Shown: in pieces, positions 35,037 to 43,694 of the stretch
Position numbering within the stretch: position 1 is the stretch's first letter
How the letters are laid out: each line of letters starts with the position of its first letter
Source: an uncultured Rhodospirillales bacterium
GTDB taxonomy: Bacteria; Pseudomonadota; Alphaproteobacteria; Acetobacterales; Acetobacteraceae
Reading direction: 5' to 3'
Length of the DNA stretch: 55,643 bases
NCBI GenBank assembly: GCA_903924855.1
Contig: CAIYCW010000083.1
Location: 1 to 55,643 of the forward strand
Position numbers and translations under genes: made by a program
The notes under the pieces: generated by a model
What the model saw: only the letters and a program-made list of their open reading frames with translations
What the model was told of the DNA's origin: nothing
The model's database searches: none

Positions 35037-38000
35037 ATGAACCCGTCGCCCCATCGCCTCGCCATCCGTGCCCGGATCCGCGCGCCGGAGGAGAGCATCC
35101 TGGATCTGGCCCGCGAGGCGGCGCTTGCGCCGGACCTGCTGGGCGCGGCGCAGGCCCGCGCCAGGGAATTGGCCGCCGGCGTGCGCCATGCGCGGCGCGG
35201 GGCGTCCGGCATCGACGCGCTGATGCATGAATTCGCGCTGTCCAGTGCCGAGGGTGTGGCGCTGATGTGCCTGGCGGAGGCGCTGCTGCGGATTCCGGAT
35301 GCCGCGACCCGCGACCGGCTGATCGCCGAGAAGATCGGCGGTGGCGATTGGGCGTCCCATCTCGGGCATTCGGCGTCGATGTTCGTCAACGCCACTGCCT
35401 GGGGGCTGCTGCTGACCGGGCGGCTGATGCCACGCGCGGAGCTTGGCGGGCTGGGCTCCACCCTGTCCGGCCTGCTGCGGCGCGGCGGTGCGCCGCTGGT
35501 GCGTCAGGCGGCGGAGCTGGCGGTGCGGCTGCTGGGGCGACAATTCGTCACCGGGGAGACGATCGAGGATGCGCTGCGCCATGCGCCGTCCCGCGAGGCG
35601 CGCGGCTATCGGTTCTCCTACGACATGCTGGGCGAGGCTGCGATGCATGCGGCCGATGCGGATCGGTATTTCCGCGCCTATGCGCATGCGATCGATGCGA
35701 TCGGCCGGCATGCCAAAGGCGCGGGGCCGATCCGGGGGGCCGGGATTTCGGTGAAGCTCTCCGCTTTGCATCCGCGCTACAGCCGGGCGCAGCGCAGTCG
35801 GGTAATGACCGAGCTGCTGCCGCGGCTGAAGGCGCTGCTGGAGATGGCGCGCGCGCATGATATCGGGCTGAACATCGATGCCGAGGAGAGCGAGCGGCTT
35901 GATCTGTCGCTGGATCTGCTGGAGGCATTGGCCACCGATCCGGAATTCACCGGCTGGGATGGCATCGGCTTTGTGGTGCAGGCCTATCAGAAGCGGGCGC
36001 GCGCGGTGATCGATGCGATCGTGGCGCTGGGCCAACGCACCGGGCACCGGCTGATGGTGCGGCTGGTGAAGGGCGCCTATTGGGACACCGAGATCAAGAA
36101 CGCGCAGATCGGGGGTTTTTCCGATTATCCGGTGTGGACGCGCAAGGACCACACCGATGTGTCCTATCTCGCCTGCGCGCGCGCCATGCTGGCGGCACCG
36201 GAGGCGATCTATCCGCAATTCGCCACCCACAATGCGCTGACCATCGCCGCGATCGAGACCTTGGCGGGAGAGGCGGAGTACGAGTTCCAGTGCCTGCATG
36301 GCATGGGCGAGGGTGTGTATGACGGACTGGTGTCTCCCAACGGGCGGGCCTGCCGCATCTATGCGCCGGTGGGCTCGCATGAGACGCTGCTGGCCTATCT
36401 GGTGCGGCGACTGCTGGAGAACGGCGCCAACACTTCCTTTGTGAACCAGATCGTCGATCCCGCGATCGATCTCGACCGGCTGGTGGAGGACCCGGTGGTG
36501 CGCACCTTGGCGCAGGGCGGCACGCGGCATCCGGCCATCAGGCTTCCGGCCGATCTCAGGCCCGGGCGGCGCAATGCGGCGGGGGTCGATCTGGCGGATG
36601 AGGTCGTGCTGACGCAGCTGGAGGCCGAGCTTGCCGCCGTGCCGTCGCACTTTCACGCAGCACCCGCATTGGTGACGACAGGCCAGGCGGAGGCGGTGCG
36701 GGTGGTGCGCAATCCGGCGACCGGCGCCGTGATCGGCGAGGTGGCGGAAGCCACGGTGCCGATGGCTCGGCAGGCGGTGGCGGATGCGCGGTTCGACGCG
36801 GAGCTGGAGACGCGCTGCGCCATGCTGGAGCGCTGGGCCGATGCGCTGGAGGCGAACCGCCCTGCCCTGTTCGCCCTGCTGCTGCGCGAGGCCGGCAAGA
36901 CGCTGCCCAACGCGGTCGCGGAGCTGCGCGAGGCGGTGGATTTCTGCCGCTATTACGCGGCCACCGCCCGCGCCGATCTGCGGCACGCAACCCCGATCGG
37001 CCCGGTTGTCTGCATCTCGCCGTGGAACTTCCCGCTCGCCATCTTCGTGGGCCAGATCGCGGCGTGTCTGGCGGCCGGCAATCCGGTGCTGGCCAAACCC
37101 GCCGAGCAGACGCCGCTGATCGCGGCCGAGGCGGTGCGGCTGGCGCATCTGGCCGGCATTCCCGCCGCCGCCTTGCAGCTGTTGCCAGGGGCCGGTGAGA
37201 CGGTGGGAGCCGCCTTGACCGCCGATTTGCGCATTGCCGGCGTGATGTTCACCGGCTCCACTCAGGTTGCCAAGCTGATCGAGCGGGCGCTTGCGTCACG
37301 CGCGGATGATCCGGTGCTGATCGCCGAGACCGGCGGGCTGAATGCGATGATCGTGGACAGTTCGGCCCAGCCGGAACAGGTGGTGGGGGATGTGCTGGCC
37401 TCCGCCTTCGACAGTGCGGGCCAGCGCTGCTCGGCGCTGCGCATCCTGTGTCTGCAGGAGAGCTGCGCGGATGCGGTGCTGGCGATGCTGAAAGGGGCGA
37501 TGGCGCAGCTGCGCCTGGGCGATCCGGCGGAGCTTGCCACCGATATCGGCCCGGTGATCGACGAAGAGGCGCGCGAGGCGCTGCTGGCGGCGATCCGGGC
37601 CGCAGGCGCGACACCGGGCAAGGTGCCCGAGGGCGGCATGTTCGTGGCGCCGGTTGTGATCGAGACCGATCTCGATCATCTGCCGACGCGTGAGATATTC
37701 GGCCCGGTGCTGCATGTGGTGCGCTGGCATGGCGAGGCACTGCCGGCGCTGATCGATCGGCTGAACGCGCTGGGCTATGGTCTGACGCATGGCGTGCATT
37801 CCCGCCTTGACGGGGTGGTGGCGCAGGTGACCGGCCGGATCCGGGCCGGCAACATCTATGTCAACCGCAACATCGTGGGGGCTGTGGTGGGCGTGCAGCC
37901 CTTTGGGGGCGAGGGTCTGTCCGGCACCGGGCCCAAGGCGGGTGGGCCGCTGATCCTGCATCGGCTGGTGCGCGGCACCGATCCTGCCCTGCCGGAGTCT

Positions 38001-38351
38001 CTGGTGCTGCCGGGGCCGACCGGGGAGGAGAATATCTGGTCGCTGCATCCGCGCGGCAAGGTGCTGTGCCTGGCCTCCAACGAGGTGGAGCGGGCGGCGC
38101 AATATGAGGCGGCCTCGCGGGCGGGCTGCCCGGTTGCAACCGAATCCCCCTCGGCCATTCTGACCGATGCAACGGGCGACGCGCTGGTGACGCTGCGCAG
38201 GCGGATGGCGGCGCAGGAGGGGGCGATCGTGCCCATCATCACCCGCCAGGATGGTGCCTATCCGGTCTGGCGGCTGCGCGCGGAGCGCTGCGTCAGCACC
38301 AACACCGCGGCCGCCGGCGGCAATGCGGCGCTGCTGGGGCAGATGGCATGA
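35037..38351 (+). CDS. putA: Bifunctional proline dehydrogenase / L-glutamate gamma-semialdehyde dehydrogenase
   Basis: Oxidises proline to glutamate in two steps, feeding electrons to quinone through FAD. The 1104-residue protein has an N-terminal helical arm, the PRODH barrel (about 160-480: VKLSALHPRYS, RLVKGAYWDTEIK, YAPVGSHETLLAYLVRRLLENGANTSFVN) and the aldehyde dehydrogenase domain (about 560-1030: PWNFPLAIFVGQ, FTGSTQVAKLI, the Glu in ETGGLNAMIVD and catalytic Cys in GQRCSALR). The ribbon-helix-helix DNA-binding domain of trifunctional PutA is absent, so regulation must come from elsewhere, probably the coupled Lrp-type gene. It is peripherally membrane-associated in this family. Confidence 0.96.
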   Translation: MNPSPHRLAIRARIRAPEESILDLAREAALAPDLLGAAQARARELAAGVRHARRGASGIDALMHEFALSSAEGVALMCLAEALLRIPDAATRDRLIAEKIGGGDWASHLGHSASMFVNATAWGLLLTGRLMPRAELGGLGSTLSGLLRRGGAPLVRQAAELAVRLLGRQFVTGETIEDALRHAPSREARGYRFSYDMLGEAAMHAADADRYFRAYAHAIDAIGRHAKGAGPIRGAGISVKLSALHPRYSRAQRSRVMTELLPRLKALLEMARAHDIGLNIDAEESERLDLSLDLLEALATDPEFTGWDGIGFVVQAYQKRARAVIDAIVALGQRTGHRLMVRLVKGAYWDTEIKNAQIGGFSDYPVWTRKDHTDVSYLACARAMLAAPEAIYPQFATHNALTIAAIETLAGEAEYEFQCLHGMGEGVYDGLVSPNGRACRIYAPVGSHETLLAYLVRRLLENGANTSFVNQIVDPAIDLDRLVEDPVVRTLAQGGTRHPAIRLPADLRPGRRNAAGVDLADEVVLTQLEAELAAVPSHFHAAPALVTTGQAEAVRVVRNPATGAVIGEVAEATVPMARQAVADARFDAELETRCAMLERWADALEANRPALFALLLREAGKTLPNAVAELREAVDFCRYYAATARADLRHATPIGPVVCISPWNFPLAIFVGQIAACLAAGNPVLAKPAEQTPLIAAEAVRLAHLAGIPAAALQLLPGAGETVGAALTADLRIAGVMFTGSTQVAKLIERALASRADDPVLIAETGGLNAMIVDSSAQPEQVVGDVLASAFDSAGQRCSALRILCLQESCADAVLAMLKGAMAQLRLGDPAELATDIGPVIDEEAREALLAAIRAAGATPGKVPEGGMFVAPVVIETDLDHLPTREIFGPVLHVVRWHGEALPALIDRLNALGYGLTHGVHSRLDGVVAQVTGRIRAGNIYVNRNIVGAVVGVQPFGGEGLSGTGPKAGGPLILHRLVRGTDPALPESLVLPGPTGEENIWSLHPRGKVLCLASNEVERAAQYEAASRAGCPVATESPSAILTDATGDALVTLRRRMAAQEGAIVPIITRQDGAYPVWRLRAERCVSTNTAAAGGNAALLGQMA

Positions 38352-38818
38352 GGCCGCTCGATCCGATCGACCGCGCCATTCTGGCCGCCCTGCAGCTTGA
38401 TGGCCGCACCGCGATCTCGGCGCTGGCGCGGGAGGTCGGCCTGTCCAACACCGCCTGCACCGAGCGGGTGCGCAATCTGGAATCGGCGGGGATCATCACC
38501 GGCTACACCGCGGTGCTGGATGCAGCGAAGCTGGGTCTGGGGCTGACCGCCTTCATCGAGGTGTCGCTGGAGCGGATCTCGACCGAGACCTTCGAGCAGT
38601 TCAAGGCGGCGATCCTTGCGATCCCGCAGATCGAGGAATGCCATATGGTGGCCGGCGGGTTCGACTATCTGCTGAAGGTGCGGGTGGCGGATATGGCGGA
38701 ATACCGCCATTTTCTGGGCACCGCGCTGTCACAGGTGCCCGGCATCCGGCAGACCCATTCCTATCCGGTGATGGAGGAGCTGAAGACCGGGCCGCATCTG
38801 GCGATACTCTCCGCCTGA
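38348..38818 (+). CDS. Lrp/AsnC-family regulator, probable PutR
   Basis: A 156-residue feast/famine regulator. The N-terminal helix-turn-helix is DGRTAISALAREVGLSNTACTERVRNLESAGIITGYTAVLD, followed by the RAM ligand-binding domain with GGFDYLLKVRV near residue 105. The ATG overlaps the putA stop (ATGA), so it is translated with putA. Lrp-type activators called PutR respond to proline in other alphaproteobacteria but are usually divergent; here it is downstream. Binding in the AT-rich region before putA is the natural expectation. Confidence 0.9.
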   Translation: MRPLDPIDRAILAALQLDGRTAISALAREVGLSNTACTERVRNLESAGIITGYTAVLDAAKLGLGLTAFIEVSLERISTETFEQFKAAILAIPQIEECHMVAGGFDYLLKVRVADMAEYRHFLGTALSQVPGIRQTHSYPVMEELKTGPHLAILSA

Positions 38819-38826
38819 TCGAAATC

Positions 38827-38854
38827 GTATGATGAGTTTCTGATTTCATCATAC
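38827..38854. promoter_or_regulatory. NikR-type operator 1
   Basis: GTATGA (38827-38832), sixteen bases, then TCATAC (38849-38854). This is exactly the GTATGA-N16-TCATAC arrangement of the Escherichia coli nik operator bound by nickel-loaded NikR. The symmetry extends to 13-base arms (38823-38835 and 38846-38858). It lies about 70 to 97 bases upstream of the TonB-dependent receptor start and 9 bases after the Lrp-type gene. Confidence 0.75.
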
Positions 38855-38879
38855 GATTCGGATTGAGCTTTGTCATACA

Positions 38880-38907
38880 GTATGCAAAACCCTTCAAAAC
38901 GTCATAC
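38880..38907. promoter_or_regulatory. NikR-type operator 2
   Basis: GTATGC (38880-38885), sixteen bases, then TCATAC (38902-38907), one mismatch from the NikR consensus. An extra TCATAC precedes it at 38873-38878. The centre is 53 bases from the centre of operator 1, about five helical turns. A dyad AAAACGT-CAT-ACGTTTT (38896-38912) overlaps its right arm, directly before the GGAGG ribosome site. Binding here would block the promoter and translation start region of the receptor gene. Confidence 0.65.
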
Positions 38908-38923
38908 GTTTTGGAGGATGCAA

Positions 38924-41053
38924 ATGAGGCTGCGCTATCCCGGGACCATCTGGATCGCACTTGTCCTGGCATTGTCAGCCCGCCCGAGCGCAGCCCAGGA
39001 GACGCCATCAGCCCCGAAGGATGCCGGCACCGATATCGGCACGGTCTCGGTGGTCAGCTCCCGGGCCGATGTGCTGGGGATCGCCGGCACGGCGAGCGAG
39101 GGAAGCGTGACGAAGGAGGAACTGGCGCTGCGCCCGGTCTACCGGGTTGGCCAGTTGCTGGAGACGGTGCCTGGCCTGGTGGTCACCACCCATGCCGGTG
39201 AAGGCAAGGCGAACCAGTATTTCATCCGTGGCTTCAATCTGGATCACGGCACCGATTTCGCGACCTATGTCGATGACATGCCGGTCAACCAGTCCACCCA
39301 CACGCATGGGCAGGGCTATTCGGATGTCCATTTCATCCTGCCGGAGATGCTGAGCGGGCTCGATTACACGAAAGGGCCGTTCTATCCCGAGATCGGCGAT
39401 TTCGGGGCGCTGGGCTCCGCCCATATGCAGCTGGCCGACACGATCCCCACCCAAGTCTCCGTCAGCGCCGGCACGCTGGGCGAGCAGCGCGTGTTCCTGG
39501 GTGGCACCGAGATGCTCGCCAATGGCGACCGGATCCTGGGCGCCCTGGCCTATGGCCATCTCGACGGCCCCTGGTCCCATCCGGACAACTATGTCAGCTA
39601 CAACGGCGCGCTGCGCTACACGCATGGCGACAGGTCGGACGGGTTCGACCTCACCGCCATGGCCTATCGCGGCACCGGCAACTTCACCACAGACCAGCCG
39701 GTGAGCGCCTATCAGAACCGGCTGATCACCCGGTTCGGCTCGCTGGACCCGAGCGATGGCAACATCACCGAGCGGCAGAGCCTGTCAGGCCATGTCTTCA
39801 AAAGCGGCGATGACTGGCAATGGGTCACCAGCGCCTATGTCATCCATTCCCGCCTCACGCTGTGGAACAACTACACGCATTATCTGGTCGATCCGGTCCT
39901 TGGCGATCAGGAAGAGCAGAACGAGAACCGTCTCACCCTTGGGGCGCAGAGCGTGTTCCAACACGACCACAGCATCGCCGGGTTCGAGACGGAGAACGAG
40001 ATCGGCATCATGGCGCGCCACGATTCCGAATATATCGACCGCCGGCACACGCAGTTCCGCAAGGTGCTGGCGGACTGTCCCAACAGCCCGTTCGGCGGTG
40101 GCGCCTATACGTGCAACGCCGATCGCGTGTCGCTTGACGATGTGGGGATCTGGATCAGCAACACCACGCATTGGACGCCCTGGCTGCGCAGCGTGGTCGG
40201 GCTGCGCGAGGAATATTACGCGGGGCATGATCGCAGCCTGGTGACCGGCTTCGTGGGCCATGCCAGCCAATCCATGCTGCAGCCGAAAGGCAGCCTGATC
40301 ATCGGCCCGTTCGCGGACACCGAGCTTTATATCAGCGCCGGCCAGGGGTTTCACAGCAACGATCTGCGCGGCGTGCTGGGCACGGTGCCGACGCTTGGCG
40401 TGTCCAACCCCAATCAGACAACGCCGTTGATGACCAAGATCGTCAGTGAGGAGATCGGGCTGCGCAGCAACGCGATCCCGGGGACGATCCTGACAGCCGC
40501 GCTGTTCCGCGAGGATTTCGACAGTTTCCTCACCTATGACGCCGATAACGGCGTCGACAATTCCGGCCCGCCGGCGCGGTTGGAGGGGGTGGAGCTGTCC
40601 GCCCAGGTGCATCCCACGCCGTGGCTGGAGTTGAATGCCGATCTGAACTTCACCCATAGCCGCTATCATGTCGGCAATCTGGACGCGTACGGGCTGGGCG
40701 GGCGTTTCATTCCGCAATCGCCGAATTTCATCGGCTCGATCGGCGCGCTGGTGGACAATCTGGGGCCGTGGTTTGGCGGTGTCGAGATGCGCTGGCTCGG
40801 GGCCTATCCGCTGGTCGATGACAACTCGTTGCGCTCACCGGGCTACAAGGAGGTCAATCTGGATGTGGGATACAAGTTCAGTGAGCATGCGAAACTGCAG
40901 CTGAGCGTGTTCAACCTGTTCAACACCCGCGCGGCGGCGTCGCAATATGCTTACACGTATCAGGTGAGCCCAGGTGCGGCGCCTGAGACCGGTGCCACCT
41001 ACCATCCGCTGGAGCCGCTGTCGGCGCGGGTGACGTTCACGCAGACATTCTGA
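38924..41053 (+). CDS. TonB-dependent outer-membrane receptor, probable nickel receptor
   Basis: A 709-residue outer-membrane barrel. Residues 1-24 are a signal peptide. A TonB-box-like DIGTVSVVSS follows, then the plug domain (about 60-170: GQLLETVPGLVVTTHAGEGKANQYFIRGFNLDHGTDFATYVDDMP). A His-rich loop, QSTHTHGQGYSDVHF, lies near residue 125. The barrel ends in a terminal Phe (ARVTFTQTF). GGAGG stands just before the ATG. The substrate is not evident from the protein family. The two NikR-type operators upstream point to nickel or a nickel chelate. No inner-membrane transporter or nikR gene lies nearby. Confidence 0.85.
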   Translation: MRLRYPGTIWIALVLALSARPSAAQETPSAPKDAGTDIGTVSVVSSRADVLGIAGTASEGSVTKEELALRPVYRVGQLLETVPGLVVTTHAGEGKANQYFIRGFNLDHGTDFATYVDDMPVNQSTHTHGQGYSDVHFILPEMLSGLDYTKGPFYPEIGDFGALGSAHMQLADTIPTQVSVSAGTLGEQRVFLGGTEMLANGDRILGALAYGHLDGPWSHPDNYVSYNGALRYTHGDRSDGFDLTAMAYRGTGNFTTDQPVSAYQNRLITRFGSLDPSDGNITERQSLSGHVFKSGDDWQWVTSAYVIHSRLTLWNNYTHYLVDPVLGDQEEQNENRLTLGAQSVFQHDHSIAGFETENEIGIMARHDSEYIDRRHTQFRKVLADCPNSPFGGGAYTCNADRVSLDDVGIWISNTTHWTPWLRSVVGLREEYYAGHDRSLVTGFVGHASQSMLQPKGSLIIGPFADTELYISAGQGFHSNDLRGVLGTVPTLGVSNPNQTTPLMTKIVSEEIGLRSNAIPGTILTAALFREDFDSFLTYDADNGVDNSGPPARLEGVELSAQVHPTPWLELNADLNFTHSRYHVGNLDAYGLGGRFIPQSPNFIGSIGALVDNLGPWFGGVEMRWLGAYPLVDDNSLRSPGYKEVNLDVGYKFSEHAKLQLSVFNLFNTRAAASQYAYTYQVSPGAAPETGATYHPLEPLSARVTFTQTF

Positions 41054-41080
41054 TCGCCTGATTTGGCGTGGACGCGGTCG

Positions 41081-41115
41081 GGCCGGGCTTGTGCGGGACC
41101 CCGTCCGGCCCGGCC
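41081..41115. terminator. GC-rich hairpin after the TonB receptor gene
   Basis: An 8-bp stem (GGCCGGGC / GCCCGGCC) closes a 19-base loop, starting 28 bases beyond the receptor stop and 48 bases from the end of the convergent DUF2474 gene. It is probably a shared 3'-end structure; no T-run is seen. Confidence 0.4.
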
Positions 41116-41162
41116 GGCTGGCAGCCTGCGTCTCGGCGCTTTCGAGGACGGTGTGTGGCGCG

Positions 41163-41282
41163 TCAGCGGGCCAGCAGCAGGGCCTTCAGGACGGTGCGGA
41201 GCAGCAAGGCGAGCGTGCCGACCACTGCGACGCCTGCCACCCAGAGCAGCAGGAACCAGCCGAGCCTGCGTGCGGTGCTCAA
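41163..41282 (-). CDS. DUF2474 / CydX-like small oxidase subunit
   Basis: A 39-residue peptide that would read STARRLGWFLLLWVAGVAVV and continue into a second hydrophobic half: one membrane helix with Arg residues at both ends. This is the pattern of DUF2474 peptides found after cioB/cydB and comparable to CydX. The start is TTG at 41282, overlapping the cydB stop (TTGA), so translation is coupled. It would be an accessory or stabilising subunit of the bd-type oxidase in the inner membrane. Confidence 0.75.
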   Translation of the reverse strand: MSTARRLGWFLLLWVAGVAVVGTLALLLRTVLKALLLAR

Positions 41283-42301
41283 TGGTAATGCACGCCCGGC
41301 TTCACCTTGCCGCGGAACACCCAATAGGCGGTGGCGGTGTAGACCAGGATGATCGGCACCAGCACGCCGGCGCCGACCAGCAGGAAGAGCTGGCTGTCAT
41401 GCGGGGCGGCGGCGTCCCAGATGGTGATGTCCGGCGGGACCATCAGCGGGAACATCGAGATGCCAAGCCCCGCGAAACACAGCACGAACCAGCCGAGCGC
41501 GCAGGCGAAGGGGCGGATATGGCTGTCGCTGTCCCGCAGCGCGCGCCAGCCGAGCCAGGCCAGCAGCGCCACCAGGATCGGCACCGGGCTGGTGAGTGCT
41601 ATGCCCGGCCAGCCGAACCAGCGTTCGGTGAAGCGCGGATGCAGGAACGGCGTCCACAGGCTGACGACGGCGATCAGGCTCAGCGTGGCGACGCCAAGCA
41701 TACGGGCATAGCGCCTGCACCGATGCTGCAACGCGCCTTCGGTGCGCCAGATCAGCCAGGTGGCGCCCAGCAGCGCATAGCCCACCACCAAAGCCACGCC
41801 GCAGAGCAAAGTGAACGGGGTCAGCCAGTCCCACCAGCCGCCGGCATAGCCGCGATCCACCACCTTGATGCCCTGCAGCAGCCCGCCCAAGGCGAGCCCC
41901 TGGCAGAACGCCGCGAGCGTGGAGCCGAGCAGGAAGGAGAGGTCCCAGGCGGTACGCCCCCAGCCGGTCTCGGCGCGGAAGCGGAACTCGAAGGCGACGC
42001 CACGGAACACCAGGGCCAGCAGCATGCCGATCATCGCCGGATACAGCGCCGGCAGGATGGTGGCATAGGCGAGCGGAAACACCGCGAACAACCCGCCGCC
42101 GCCGAGGACCAGCCAGGTCTCGTTGCCGTCCCACACCGGGGCGATGGAGTTCACCATCACATCCCGGCATTCCGGGTCGCGTTCGACGCCGAACAGGATG
42201 CCGACGCCGAGATCGAACCCGTCCAGCACCACATAGGCGAGCACGGCGAAGGCGATCAGGCCGGCCCAGATCAGCGGCAGGTCCCAGGAGGCGGTGTCCA
42301 T
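41279..42301 (-). CDS. cydB: Cytochrome bd-type quinol oxidase subunit II
   Basis: A 340-residue inner-membrane protein starting at MDTASWDLPL with about eight to nine membrane helices. The conserved entry LIAFAVLAYVVLDGFDLGVGIL and the WDGNETWLVLGGGGLFAVFP segment near residue 60 define subunit II. It pairs with subunit I encoded 4 bases upstream. The ATG at 42301 has GGGGAA in front, within the end of cydA. Together with the short Q-loop of subunit I this suggests the cyanide-insensitive (CioB) branch. Confidence 0.94.
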   Translation of the reverse strand: MDTASWDLPLIWAGLIAFAVLAYVVLDGFDLGVGILFGVERDPECRDVMVNSIAPVWDGNETWLVLGGGGLFAVFPLAYATILPALYPAMIGMLLALVFRGVAFEFRFRAETGWGRTAWDLSFLLGSTLAAFCQGLALGGLLQGIKVVDRGYAGGWWDWLTPFTLLCGVALVVGYALLGATWLIWRTEGALQHRCRRYARMLGVATLSLIAVVSLWTPFLHPRFTERWFGWPGIALTSPVPILVALLAWLGWRALRDSDSHIRPFACALGWFVLCFAGLGISMFPLMVPPDITIWDAAAPHDSQLFLLVGAGVLVPIILVYTATAYWVFRGKVKPGVHYH

Positions 42302-42305
42302 GGCG

Positions 42306-43694
42306 TTATTCCCCGGCAATGACGGGGCCGGGCATCAGCCCTGCCACGCGCTGTGGCAGCTTGGACGGCCCCTGTTCGCCCGGCGTCGGCGGATCGGCGA
42401 GCAGGCGCAGCACCAGGCCGACACCGGCGCCAAACACCAGCAGATAGACCACCACAAAGGCCGCCAGCGACACGCCAAGCCCCGGAGCGCCGATCGGCGA
42501 GACGCTTTGCGCGGTGCGCAGCACGCCATAGACGGTGTAGGGCTGGCGGCCGACCTCGGTGGTGACCCAGCCGGCGAGCAGGGCGATCAGGCCGGAGGGC
42601 GCCATCAGCACCGAGGCGCGCAGCAGCAGCGTGTGGTCATACAGGCGGCGCTTCCAGCGCAGCCACAGGCTGGCGAGCCCGAGTGCCGCCATCGCGGTGC
42701 CAAGCCCCACCATCAGACGGAACGACCAGAACAATATCTCCACCGGGGGACGGTCTTCCGGCTTGAAGTCCGACAGGCCCGGCGTGTGGCCGCTCCAGCT
42801 ATGGGTGAGGATGAGGCCCGAGAGATGCGGGATGGCGATCTCATCATCCATCCGGCCGGCCGCGTTGTTGGGAATGCCGAACAGGATCAGCGCAGCGCCG
42901 TCCTGCGGCTGATAATGGCCTTCCATGGCGGCGATCTTGGCGGGCTGGTGTTGCAGCGTGTTCAGCCCGTGCGCATCCCCCACCAGGATCTGCGCCGGGG
43001 CGGCCAGGGCCGCCATCCACATCGCCATGGAGAACATGGTGCGTGCCGCCTCGTTGCGCCGGTCATGCAGCAGATGCCAGGCGCCGGTGGCGCCGACGAC
43101 GAAGGCGACCGACAAATAGGAGGCCAGCACCATGTGCGGGAAGCGCACCGGAAAGCTTGGGTTGAAGATGATGGCCAGCCAATCGGCCGGCAGCATGCGT
43201 CCATCGGCATCCAGCGTGAAACCGGCTGGTGTCTGCATCCAGGAATTCACCGACAGGATCCAGAACGCGGAGAGCAGGGTTCCGAACGCCACCACGCAGG
43301 TGGCGATGAAATGCAGCGTGGGCCCCACCTTCTCCTGGCCGAACAGCATGACGCCGAGGAACCCCGCCTCCAGGAAGAAGGCGCTCAGCACCTCATAGCC
43401 CATCAGCGGGCCGATCACGGGCCCCGCCTTGTCGGCGAAGACCGACCAGTTGGTGCCGAACTGGTAGGACATCACCAGGCCCGAGACCACGCCCATGCCG
43501 AAGACCAGCGAGAAGGGTTTGAGCCAGTATTTGAAGAGGTCGAGATAGACCCGGCTGCCGGTCTTCAGCCACATCCCCTCCAGCACCGCCAGATAGCTGG
43601 CAAGGCCGATCGAGAGTGCGGGGAAGATGATATGCGCCATCACCGTGAAGGCGAATTGCACACGGGCGAGGTGAAAGGCGTCCAGACCGAACAT
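42306..43694 (-). CDS. cydA: Cytochrome bd-type (cyanide-insensitive) quinol oxidase subunit I
   Basis: A 462-residue membrane subunit carrying the hemes and quinol site; reduces oxygen to water without proton pumping. Conserved pieces are the His ligand in RVQFAFTVMAHIIFPALSIGLA near residue 20, GTNWSVFADKAGPVIG near 80, SVNSWMQTPAGF near 145 and GWVTTEVGRQPYTVYGVLRT near 385. The length is that of CioA forms with a short Q-loop. A GGGAAA ribosome site precedes the ATG. Operon order is cydA-cydB-DUF2474. The symbol cioA would also fit. Confidence 0.94.
   Translation of the reverse strand: MFGLDAFHLARVQFAFTVMAHIIFPALSIGLASYLAVLEGMWLKTGSRVYLDLFKYWLKPFSLVFGMGVVSGLVMSYQFGTNWSVFADKAGPVIGPLMGYEVLSAFFLEAGFLGVMLFGQEKVGPTLHFIATCVVAFGTLLSAFWILSVNSWMQTPAGFTLDADGRMLPADWLAIIFNPSFPVRFPHMVLASYLSVAFVVGATGAWHLLHDRRNEAARTMFSMAMWMAALAAPAQILVGDAHGLNTLQHQPAKIAAMEGHYQPQDGAALILFGIPNNAAGRMDDEIAIPHLSGLILTHSWSGHTPGLSDFKPEDRPPVEILFWSFRLMVGLGTAMAALGLASLWLRWKRRLYDHTLLLRASVLMAPSGLIALLAGWVTTEVGRQPYTVYGVLRTAQSVSPIGAPGLGVSLAAFVVVYLLVFGAGVGLVLRLLADPPTPGEQGPSKLPQRVAGLMPGPVIAGE

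Follow-up and report, generated by a model that had tools for sequence, protein, structure and literature searches.

What regulates the TonB-dependent receptor gene at positions 38924–41053 (plus strand) of the window, the whole 55,643-nucleotide stretch of an uncultured Rhodospirillales bacterium analysed here, and which metal does the receptor carry? Profile searches divide the predicted protein of 709 amino acids into a plug domain (PF07715, 47.2 bits) and a beta-barrel (PF00593, 102.3 bits), and the plug contains the motif HTHGQGY, which includes His126 and His128. The closest PDB matches of a structure model (mean pLDDT 77.6, pTM 0.80) are YncD (6v81), PqqU (9c4o) and FecA (1kmp), at 15–18% identity. 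The gene is preceded by putA and a gene for an Lrp-type regulator and followed by genes judged by eye to be cytochrome bd-like; among these neighbours, neither a nickel gene nor nikR was found. An orthologue of the receptor is absent from seven of seven other genomes of the same genus that were searched, and an Rfam scan of positions 36000–43000 detected no cobalamin riboswitch (RF00174) in front of the gene. The 105-base gap upstream of the receptor gene suggests an answer. Nickel-loaded NikR of the host likely binds two operators in this gap and represses a receptor whose predicted role is to bring nickel, free or chelated, through the outer membrane, a reading to which we assign a probability of about 0.75.

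Operator 1 (GTATGATGAGTTTCTGATTTCATCATAC, positions 38827–38854) was identified by inspection and by a genome-wide pattern scan, and it matches GTATGA-N16-TCATAC without a mismatch. Operator 2 (GTATGCAAAACCCTTCAAAACGTCATAC, 38880–38907) reads GTATGC-N16-TCATAC and thus deviates by one base; the same variant occurs, adjoining nikR, in front of two Rhodopseudomonas orthologues (L085 and L103). The centres of the two operators are separated by 53 bp, and operator 2 ends 5 bases upstream of GGAGG (38913–38917, plus strand), the likely Shine-Dalgarno sequence of the receptor gene. The earlier note, based on the sequence alone, had placed both sites here at this distance, with the second just ahead of the ribosome site, and had assigned operator 1 to the architecture of the E. 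coli NikR operator; all of this was reproduced, the half-sites and spacing being those bound by E. coli NikR at nikABCDE in the available text of PMC7055735. Because operator 2 adjoins the ribosome site, a promoter is suggested nearby. The sole promoter-like match in positions 38700–39000 lies on the minus strand (38876–38848) and was not used. An additional half-site, TCATAC, is located between the operators on the minus strand (38873–38878) and belongs to no 21-bp pair. Taken together, both sites are very likely NikR operators.

A regulator predicted to read such sites is encoded in the same genome, a draft that is 84.5% complete with 1.9% contamination. The earlier note had proposed to look for nikR, and a single copy was found on contig C149 (5.4 kb, separate from the window), its product of 136 amino acids scoring 185.9 bits against TIGR02793 (cut-off 175.45). 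The protein and E. coli NikR can be aligned over their whole length and both start with MQRVTIT; the host protein retains H76, H87, H89 and C95 as well as R3, T5 and T7, which we take to be the nickel ligands and the DNA-contact positions, respectively, of the E. coli protein. The operators and a nikR gene with the E. coli reading head are hence found in one draft genome, on separate contigs. The nikR contig resembles the window in GC content (0.658 versus 0.665) and tetranucleotide usage (r 0.976), a tie that is weak because another member of the same family gives r 0.956. No NikR-type site was found at nikR itself in the host genome. The genome further encodes a NiCoT permease on contig C40 (TIGR00802, 412 bits against a cut-off of 333) and the urease alpha subunit on C122. 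A search for a hydrogenase large subunit recovered no whole one, only a partial match over 62 positions (31.5 bits) that was not counted as a hydrogenase. The sole cobalamin riboswitch found in the genome (C38:50268–50469, L157) adjoins genes that, judged by eye, are of the cobalamin type.

To place the locus among its relatives, 111 receptor loci were gathered, followed by 14 more; the named loci number 80, represent the best 80 of 468 and come mostly from Bradyrhizobium. Some loci are redundant (L066 and L080 repeat L025 and L027, and L204 repeats L042), and 3 of the 111 were too short for labelling, leaving 108 usable upstream regions. The window's own branch comprises 31 loci (17 plus 14) with at least 47% identity to its receptor, and 91 loci fall below 47%. 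An inverted site with at most one mismatch is present within 700 bp in 46 of the 108 upstream regions, window included. By scan, the 91 distant loci comprise 45 with an inverted site, 7 with a direct repeat (discussed below) and 29 with neither a site nor a riboswitch, where riboswitch labels denote two conserved motifs of alignment A1 and the Rfam check covered L024, L026, L028 and L039 only. nikR lies within 3 kb at 37 of the 45 distant loci with an inverted site, and at the remaining 10 of the 91 an inverted site precedes a NiCoT gene that itself precedes the receptor. The spacing is specific: exact inverted pairs occur at N16 in 40 of 106 distinct upstream regions and in at most one region at any other spacing from 0 to 40. 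Across 397 genomes of the family, the exact inverted site was found in 27 genomes (29 sites), compared with 6 for a reversed-pattern control, and at 13 of 26 loci examined, drawn from the 28 sites outside the window, nikR, NiCoT or hypB lies within about 1.5 kb.

Individual loci illustrate this context. On plasmid pHCG3 of Afipia carboxidovorans (L036), the receptor adjoins nikR and hyp genes and has an operator with one mismatch; in Paraburkholderia acidisoli, nikR and NiCoT are followed by the receptor orthologue; and in Bradyrhizobium sp. 62B, the orthologue lies 3' of NiCoT and 5' of a gene for a hydrogenase b-type cytochrome. Other half-site pairs at the same spacing were observed next to nikR (GTAAGA-N16-TCTTAC in L083 and TTATGC-N16-GCATAC in L105), and GTATGC-N16-GCATAC occurs in L097, where no nikR was found by scan. 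The earlier note's expectation that paired half-sites would be conserved before orthologues therefore holds in part: it is borne out at the 45 distant loci, 37 of them with nikR nearby, but not in the window's own branch, where the window alone has inverted operators. Judged from these sequence comparisons, control of the receptor by NikR is well supported.

The own branch, in turn, bears on the identity of the cargo. Its 31 loci comprise 20 with a cobalamin riboswitch, all confirmed by Rfam (RF00174), 4 with a direct repeat adjacent to nikR, the window with its inverted operators, and 6 with neither type of switch. A riboswitch also predominates among the closest orthologues with readable upstream DNA (48–58% identity), a set that excludes the nearest homologues at 63–73% (P0002–P0033). 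In the tree, every riboswitch locus found groups in one branch together with the window, which sits next to homologues outside the upstream labelling; a careful tree of the labelled rows requires three switches in control, and the window is flagged there as a long branch. Because 20 of the 31 loci are riboswitch-controlled and 4 have a direct repeat, the cobalt type is as well represented as the nickel type among the relatives of the window's receptor. Two genomes, G401 and G427, each encode two receptors, one with a divergent nikR and a direct repeat (L197 and L200) and one behind a riboswitch (L205 and L207), and in the riboswitch loci L202 and L203 a NiCoT gene directly follows the receptor. 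More generally, what is observed is a split in control, and it looks like one receptor family would serve nickel or cobalt, told apart by the control switch. As side observations, L196, L199 and L201 contain, close to the receptor riboswitch but on the other strand, a second, weaker RF00174 match (34–39 bits), and L206, the additional receptor copy of G404, is interrupted by one internal stop and has neither a riboswitch nor a NikR site in its upstream region.

Residue 126 of the plug largely follows this split. It is a histidine in 67 of 67 NikR-linked receptors (the window, 4 of 4 close and 62 of 62 distant ones), and among 20 riboswitch receptors it is an asparagine in 15 and a histidine in 5. 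Each of the paralogue pairs in G401 and G427 combines a nikR-linked copy with His126 and a riboswitch copy with Asn126, and five unlabelled close loci placed on the tree all have Asn126. Since the residue changes only twice on the tree, the counts of 67 of 67 and 15 of 20 are far from independent, and the five riboswitch receptors that keep His126 mean that it is no strict divider. As a candidate marker for nickel or cobalt, residue 126 is a lead, not proof.

Three other explanations need to be weighed against nickel-dependent repression by NikR. That the operators are chance matches to a short pattern is suggested by the behaviour of looser searches, which run at background: at up to three mismatches the window contains 8 sites (6.6 expected), and at up to two the genome contains 15 (11 in the control), so that only sites with no or one mismatch carry weight. 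At that stringency, the entire 3.9-Mb genome has four inverted sites, two of which are the operators in the receptor gap; the other two, each with one mismatch, lie at C55:9605–9632 and C131:17958–17985. The 105-base gap was shuffled 100,000 times with dinucleotides preserved: 47 of the shuffles contained at least one site with at most one mismatch, 2 contained an exact site, and none contained two sites, in line with the earlier note's judgement that two matches are improbable by chance. A pure chance origin was rejected on the last of these counts; with the operator conserved in orthologues and nikR present in the genome, it is very improbable indeed. An explanation with somewhat more in its favour is that the repeats act in RNA, operator 1 as a hairpin after the stop codon of the lrp gene and operator 2 within a leader hairpin that would mask the Shine-Dalgarno sequence and thereby control translation. 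Operator 1 is enclosed by an inverted repeat (38818–38863) with 18-nucleotide arms, 16 of 18 positions being paired, such that its symmetry extends well beyond the NikR half-sites, and this stretch folds at –22.6 kcal/mol (z –4.9 versus shuffles). Overlapping operator 2, a potential leader hairpin on the plus strand (38891–38917, arms 38891–38902 and 38906–38917, 12 pairs) folds at –15.4 kcal/mol (z –5.65 versus shuffles), so both stretches fold far better than shuffled sequences, and the leader hairpin, if transcribed, would pair with the Shine-Dalgarno sequence of the receptor gene. Against this stand the exact NikR half-sites at exactly the NikR spacing, twice, and the orthologues, which keep only the half-sites: their spacers are unrelated, and the lists examined contain no hairpins of this kind. 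A scan for an intrinsic terminator after lrp found none, and a transcript beginning inside operator 2 would be unable to form the second hairpin. RNA as the sole basis of control is accordingly improbable; the hairpins in the gap might add a level of control that supplements, rather than replaces, that by NikR.

The third explanation accepts NikR as the regulator and concerns the cargo, proposing cobalt itself or a chelate shared by the two metals. In this view, a receptor of the riboswitch branch would have come under nickel control, with nickel limiting the entry of a shared metal chelate. The window's place in the branch with every riboswitch-labelled locus found is consistent with this, as are the NiCoT genes directly after the receptors of L202 and L203, which suit cobalt, and the five riboswitch receptors with His126. 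However, the only riboswitch found in the host genome lies on C38 between cobalamin-type genes, the genome has urease, and the window's receptor has His126, as do the nikR-linked paralogues of G401 and G427. We consider a cobalt or mixed cargo unlikely, though less so than control in RNA, and nickel import remains the best reading of the receptor's predicted function.

Is the inverted repeat the only form of site that NikR would read in this family? In the host genome, GTATGACGATCGCACAAGATCGTATGA (G000:C40:125978–126004, corresponding to L159 2979–3005) is an exact GTATGA-N15-GTATGA direct repeat whose end lies 17 bases upstream of the presumed NiCoT start. When exact half-site pairs were counted in every orientation and at every spacing from 0 to 40 in the 106 regions, the only peak besides inverted N16 was direct N15 (4 regions), all others reaching at most 1; with one mismatch allowed, the counts were 46 for inverted N16 and 7 for direct N15, and the next highest was 4, for direct N10. 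In Acetobacteraceae, the direct repeats are located between nikR and the receptor. The direct repeat is supported by position only, because the exact pattern shows no enrichment in the 397 family genomes (57 sites in 50 genomes versus 46 in 36 for the reversed control, by hand count). Of the 57 sites in total, 30 loci were examined, and 4 of these are at nikR and the receptor or at NiCoT; a fifth site (G112) is the operator of L028. A geometric argument suggests how both arrangements could be accommodated: with the two-fold axis of the NikR dimer on the T of GTA-T-GAY, inverted N16 and direct N15 would both space the dimers by 21 bp. Residue 2 of NikR is a glutamate in many genomes with direct repeats and a glutamine in many with inverted sites, but does not divide the two classes because the host has glutamine and both kinds of site. 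A wider model can be put forward tentatively, at somewhat less than even odds. NikR would read GTATGA in either orientation provided that the dimers are 21 bp apart; one receptor family would switch between nickel duty (a NikR site and His126-x-His128) and cobalt duty (a B12 riboswitch and often Asn126), sometimes as paralogues in one genome; and the window's receptor would have been brought under NikR control independently, through two inverted operators.

Based on these data, the proposed mechanism would be that, when nickel is sufficient, one NikR tetramer per operator blocks the promoter, and that, when nickel is scarce, NikR releases the operators, such that the receptor and NiCoT are made together. 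Nickel would then pass the outer membrane and subsequently the inner membrane on its way toward urease. Binding, repression and joint control of NiCoT are predicted steps of this scheme. Its interest lies in that nickel import through the outer membrane outside Helicobacter is almost wholly based on prediction, and the window provides a receptor gene preceded by a double NikR switch, while its genome also encodes NikR, NiCoT and urease. Should the direct-repeat operator prove genuine, searches for inverted repeats will have missed NikR sites, and it would offer a clean test of how far a ribbon-helix-helix tetramer tolerates changes in half-site orientation. The paired nikR-linked and riboswitch-linked paralogues in single genomes constitute a natural experiment on the choice between nickel and cobalt.

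Several known systems provide a frame for comparison. In Helicobacter, NikR represses the TonB-dependent receptors FrpB4 and FecA3, and also NikH of H. mustelae, according to the accessible text of PMC3856676. The window shares with FrpB4 and FecA3 a NikR site before a TonB-dependent receptor and a proposed nickel cargo, the receptors being compared by description, but its half-sites GTATGA/TCATAC differ from those of H. pylori operators, given in an excerpt of PMC5385501 as TRTTA and TAWTA, 15 nucleotides apart. The earlier note drew the analogy to Helicobacter for an alphaproteobacterium; this is not new, as alphaproteobacterial relatives are already in print. The core prediction is likewise published, since the available portions of PMC3400609 and PMC7142613 list relatives as predicted nickel receptors (Bll6948, Daro_3944, RPA_4757 and pHCG3_081) or as a predicted cobalt receptor (Daro_1684). 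The present orthologues from pHCG3, Bradyrhizobium and Rhodopseudomonas are linked to that cluster, as far as the partial text goes, by replicon or genus rather than by locus tag. The window's receptor is homologous over its full length to the pHCG3 receptor adjoining nikR (37.5% identity; published tags unmatched); it is only 36–41% identical to the published-cluster side and falls in another well-supported branch. A riboswitch-led cobalt receptor has been predicted in Novosphingobium aromaticivorans (PMC7689651, partial text); riboswitch-controlled predicted cobalt receptors share the window's branch, yet the window's receptor lacks a riboswitch. Within the open literature searched, no description of a NikR direct-repeat operator was found, nor any of the paralogue split or of residue 126. 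That the orientation of NikR half-sites can change is indicated by the deltaproteobacterium Desulfotalea psychrophila, for which the available part of PMC545781 gives GTAACAC-N13/14-GTGTTAC; those half-sites are everted, whereas the Acetobacteraceae sites are direct repeats of GTATGA. Finally, operator 1 has the same half-sites and spacing as the E. coli nikABCDE operator, in so far as the cited text describes it, but the window differs from that system in its tandem operators, in the GTATGC of operator 2, and in a target that is an outer-membrane receptor rather than an ABC importer. The window thereby adds a doubled-operator member to an already predicted receptor family.
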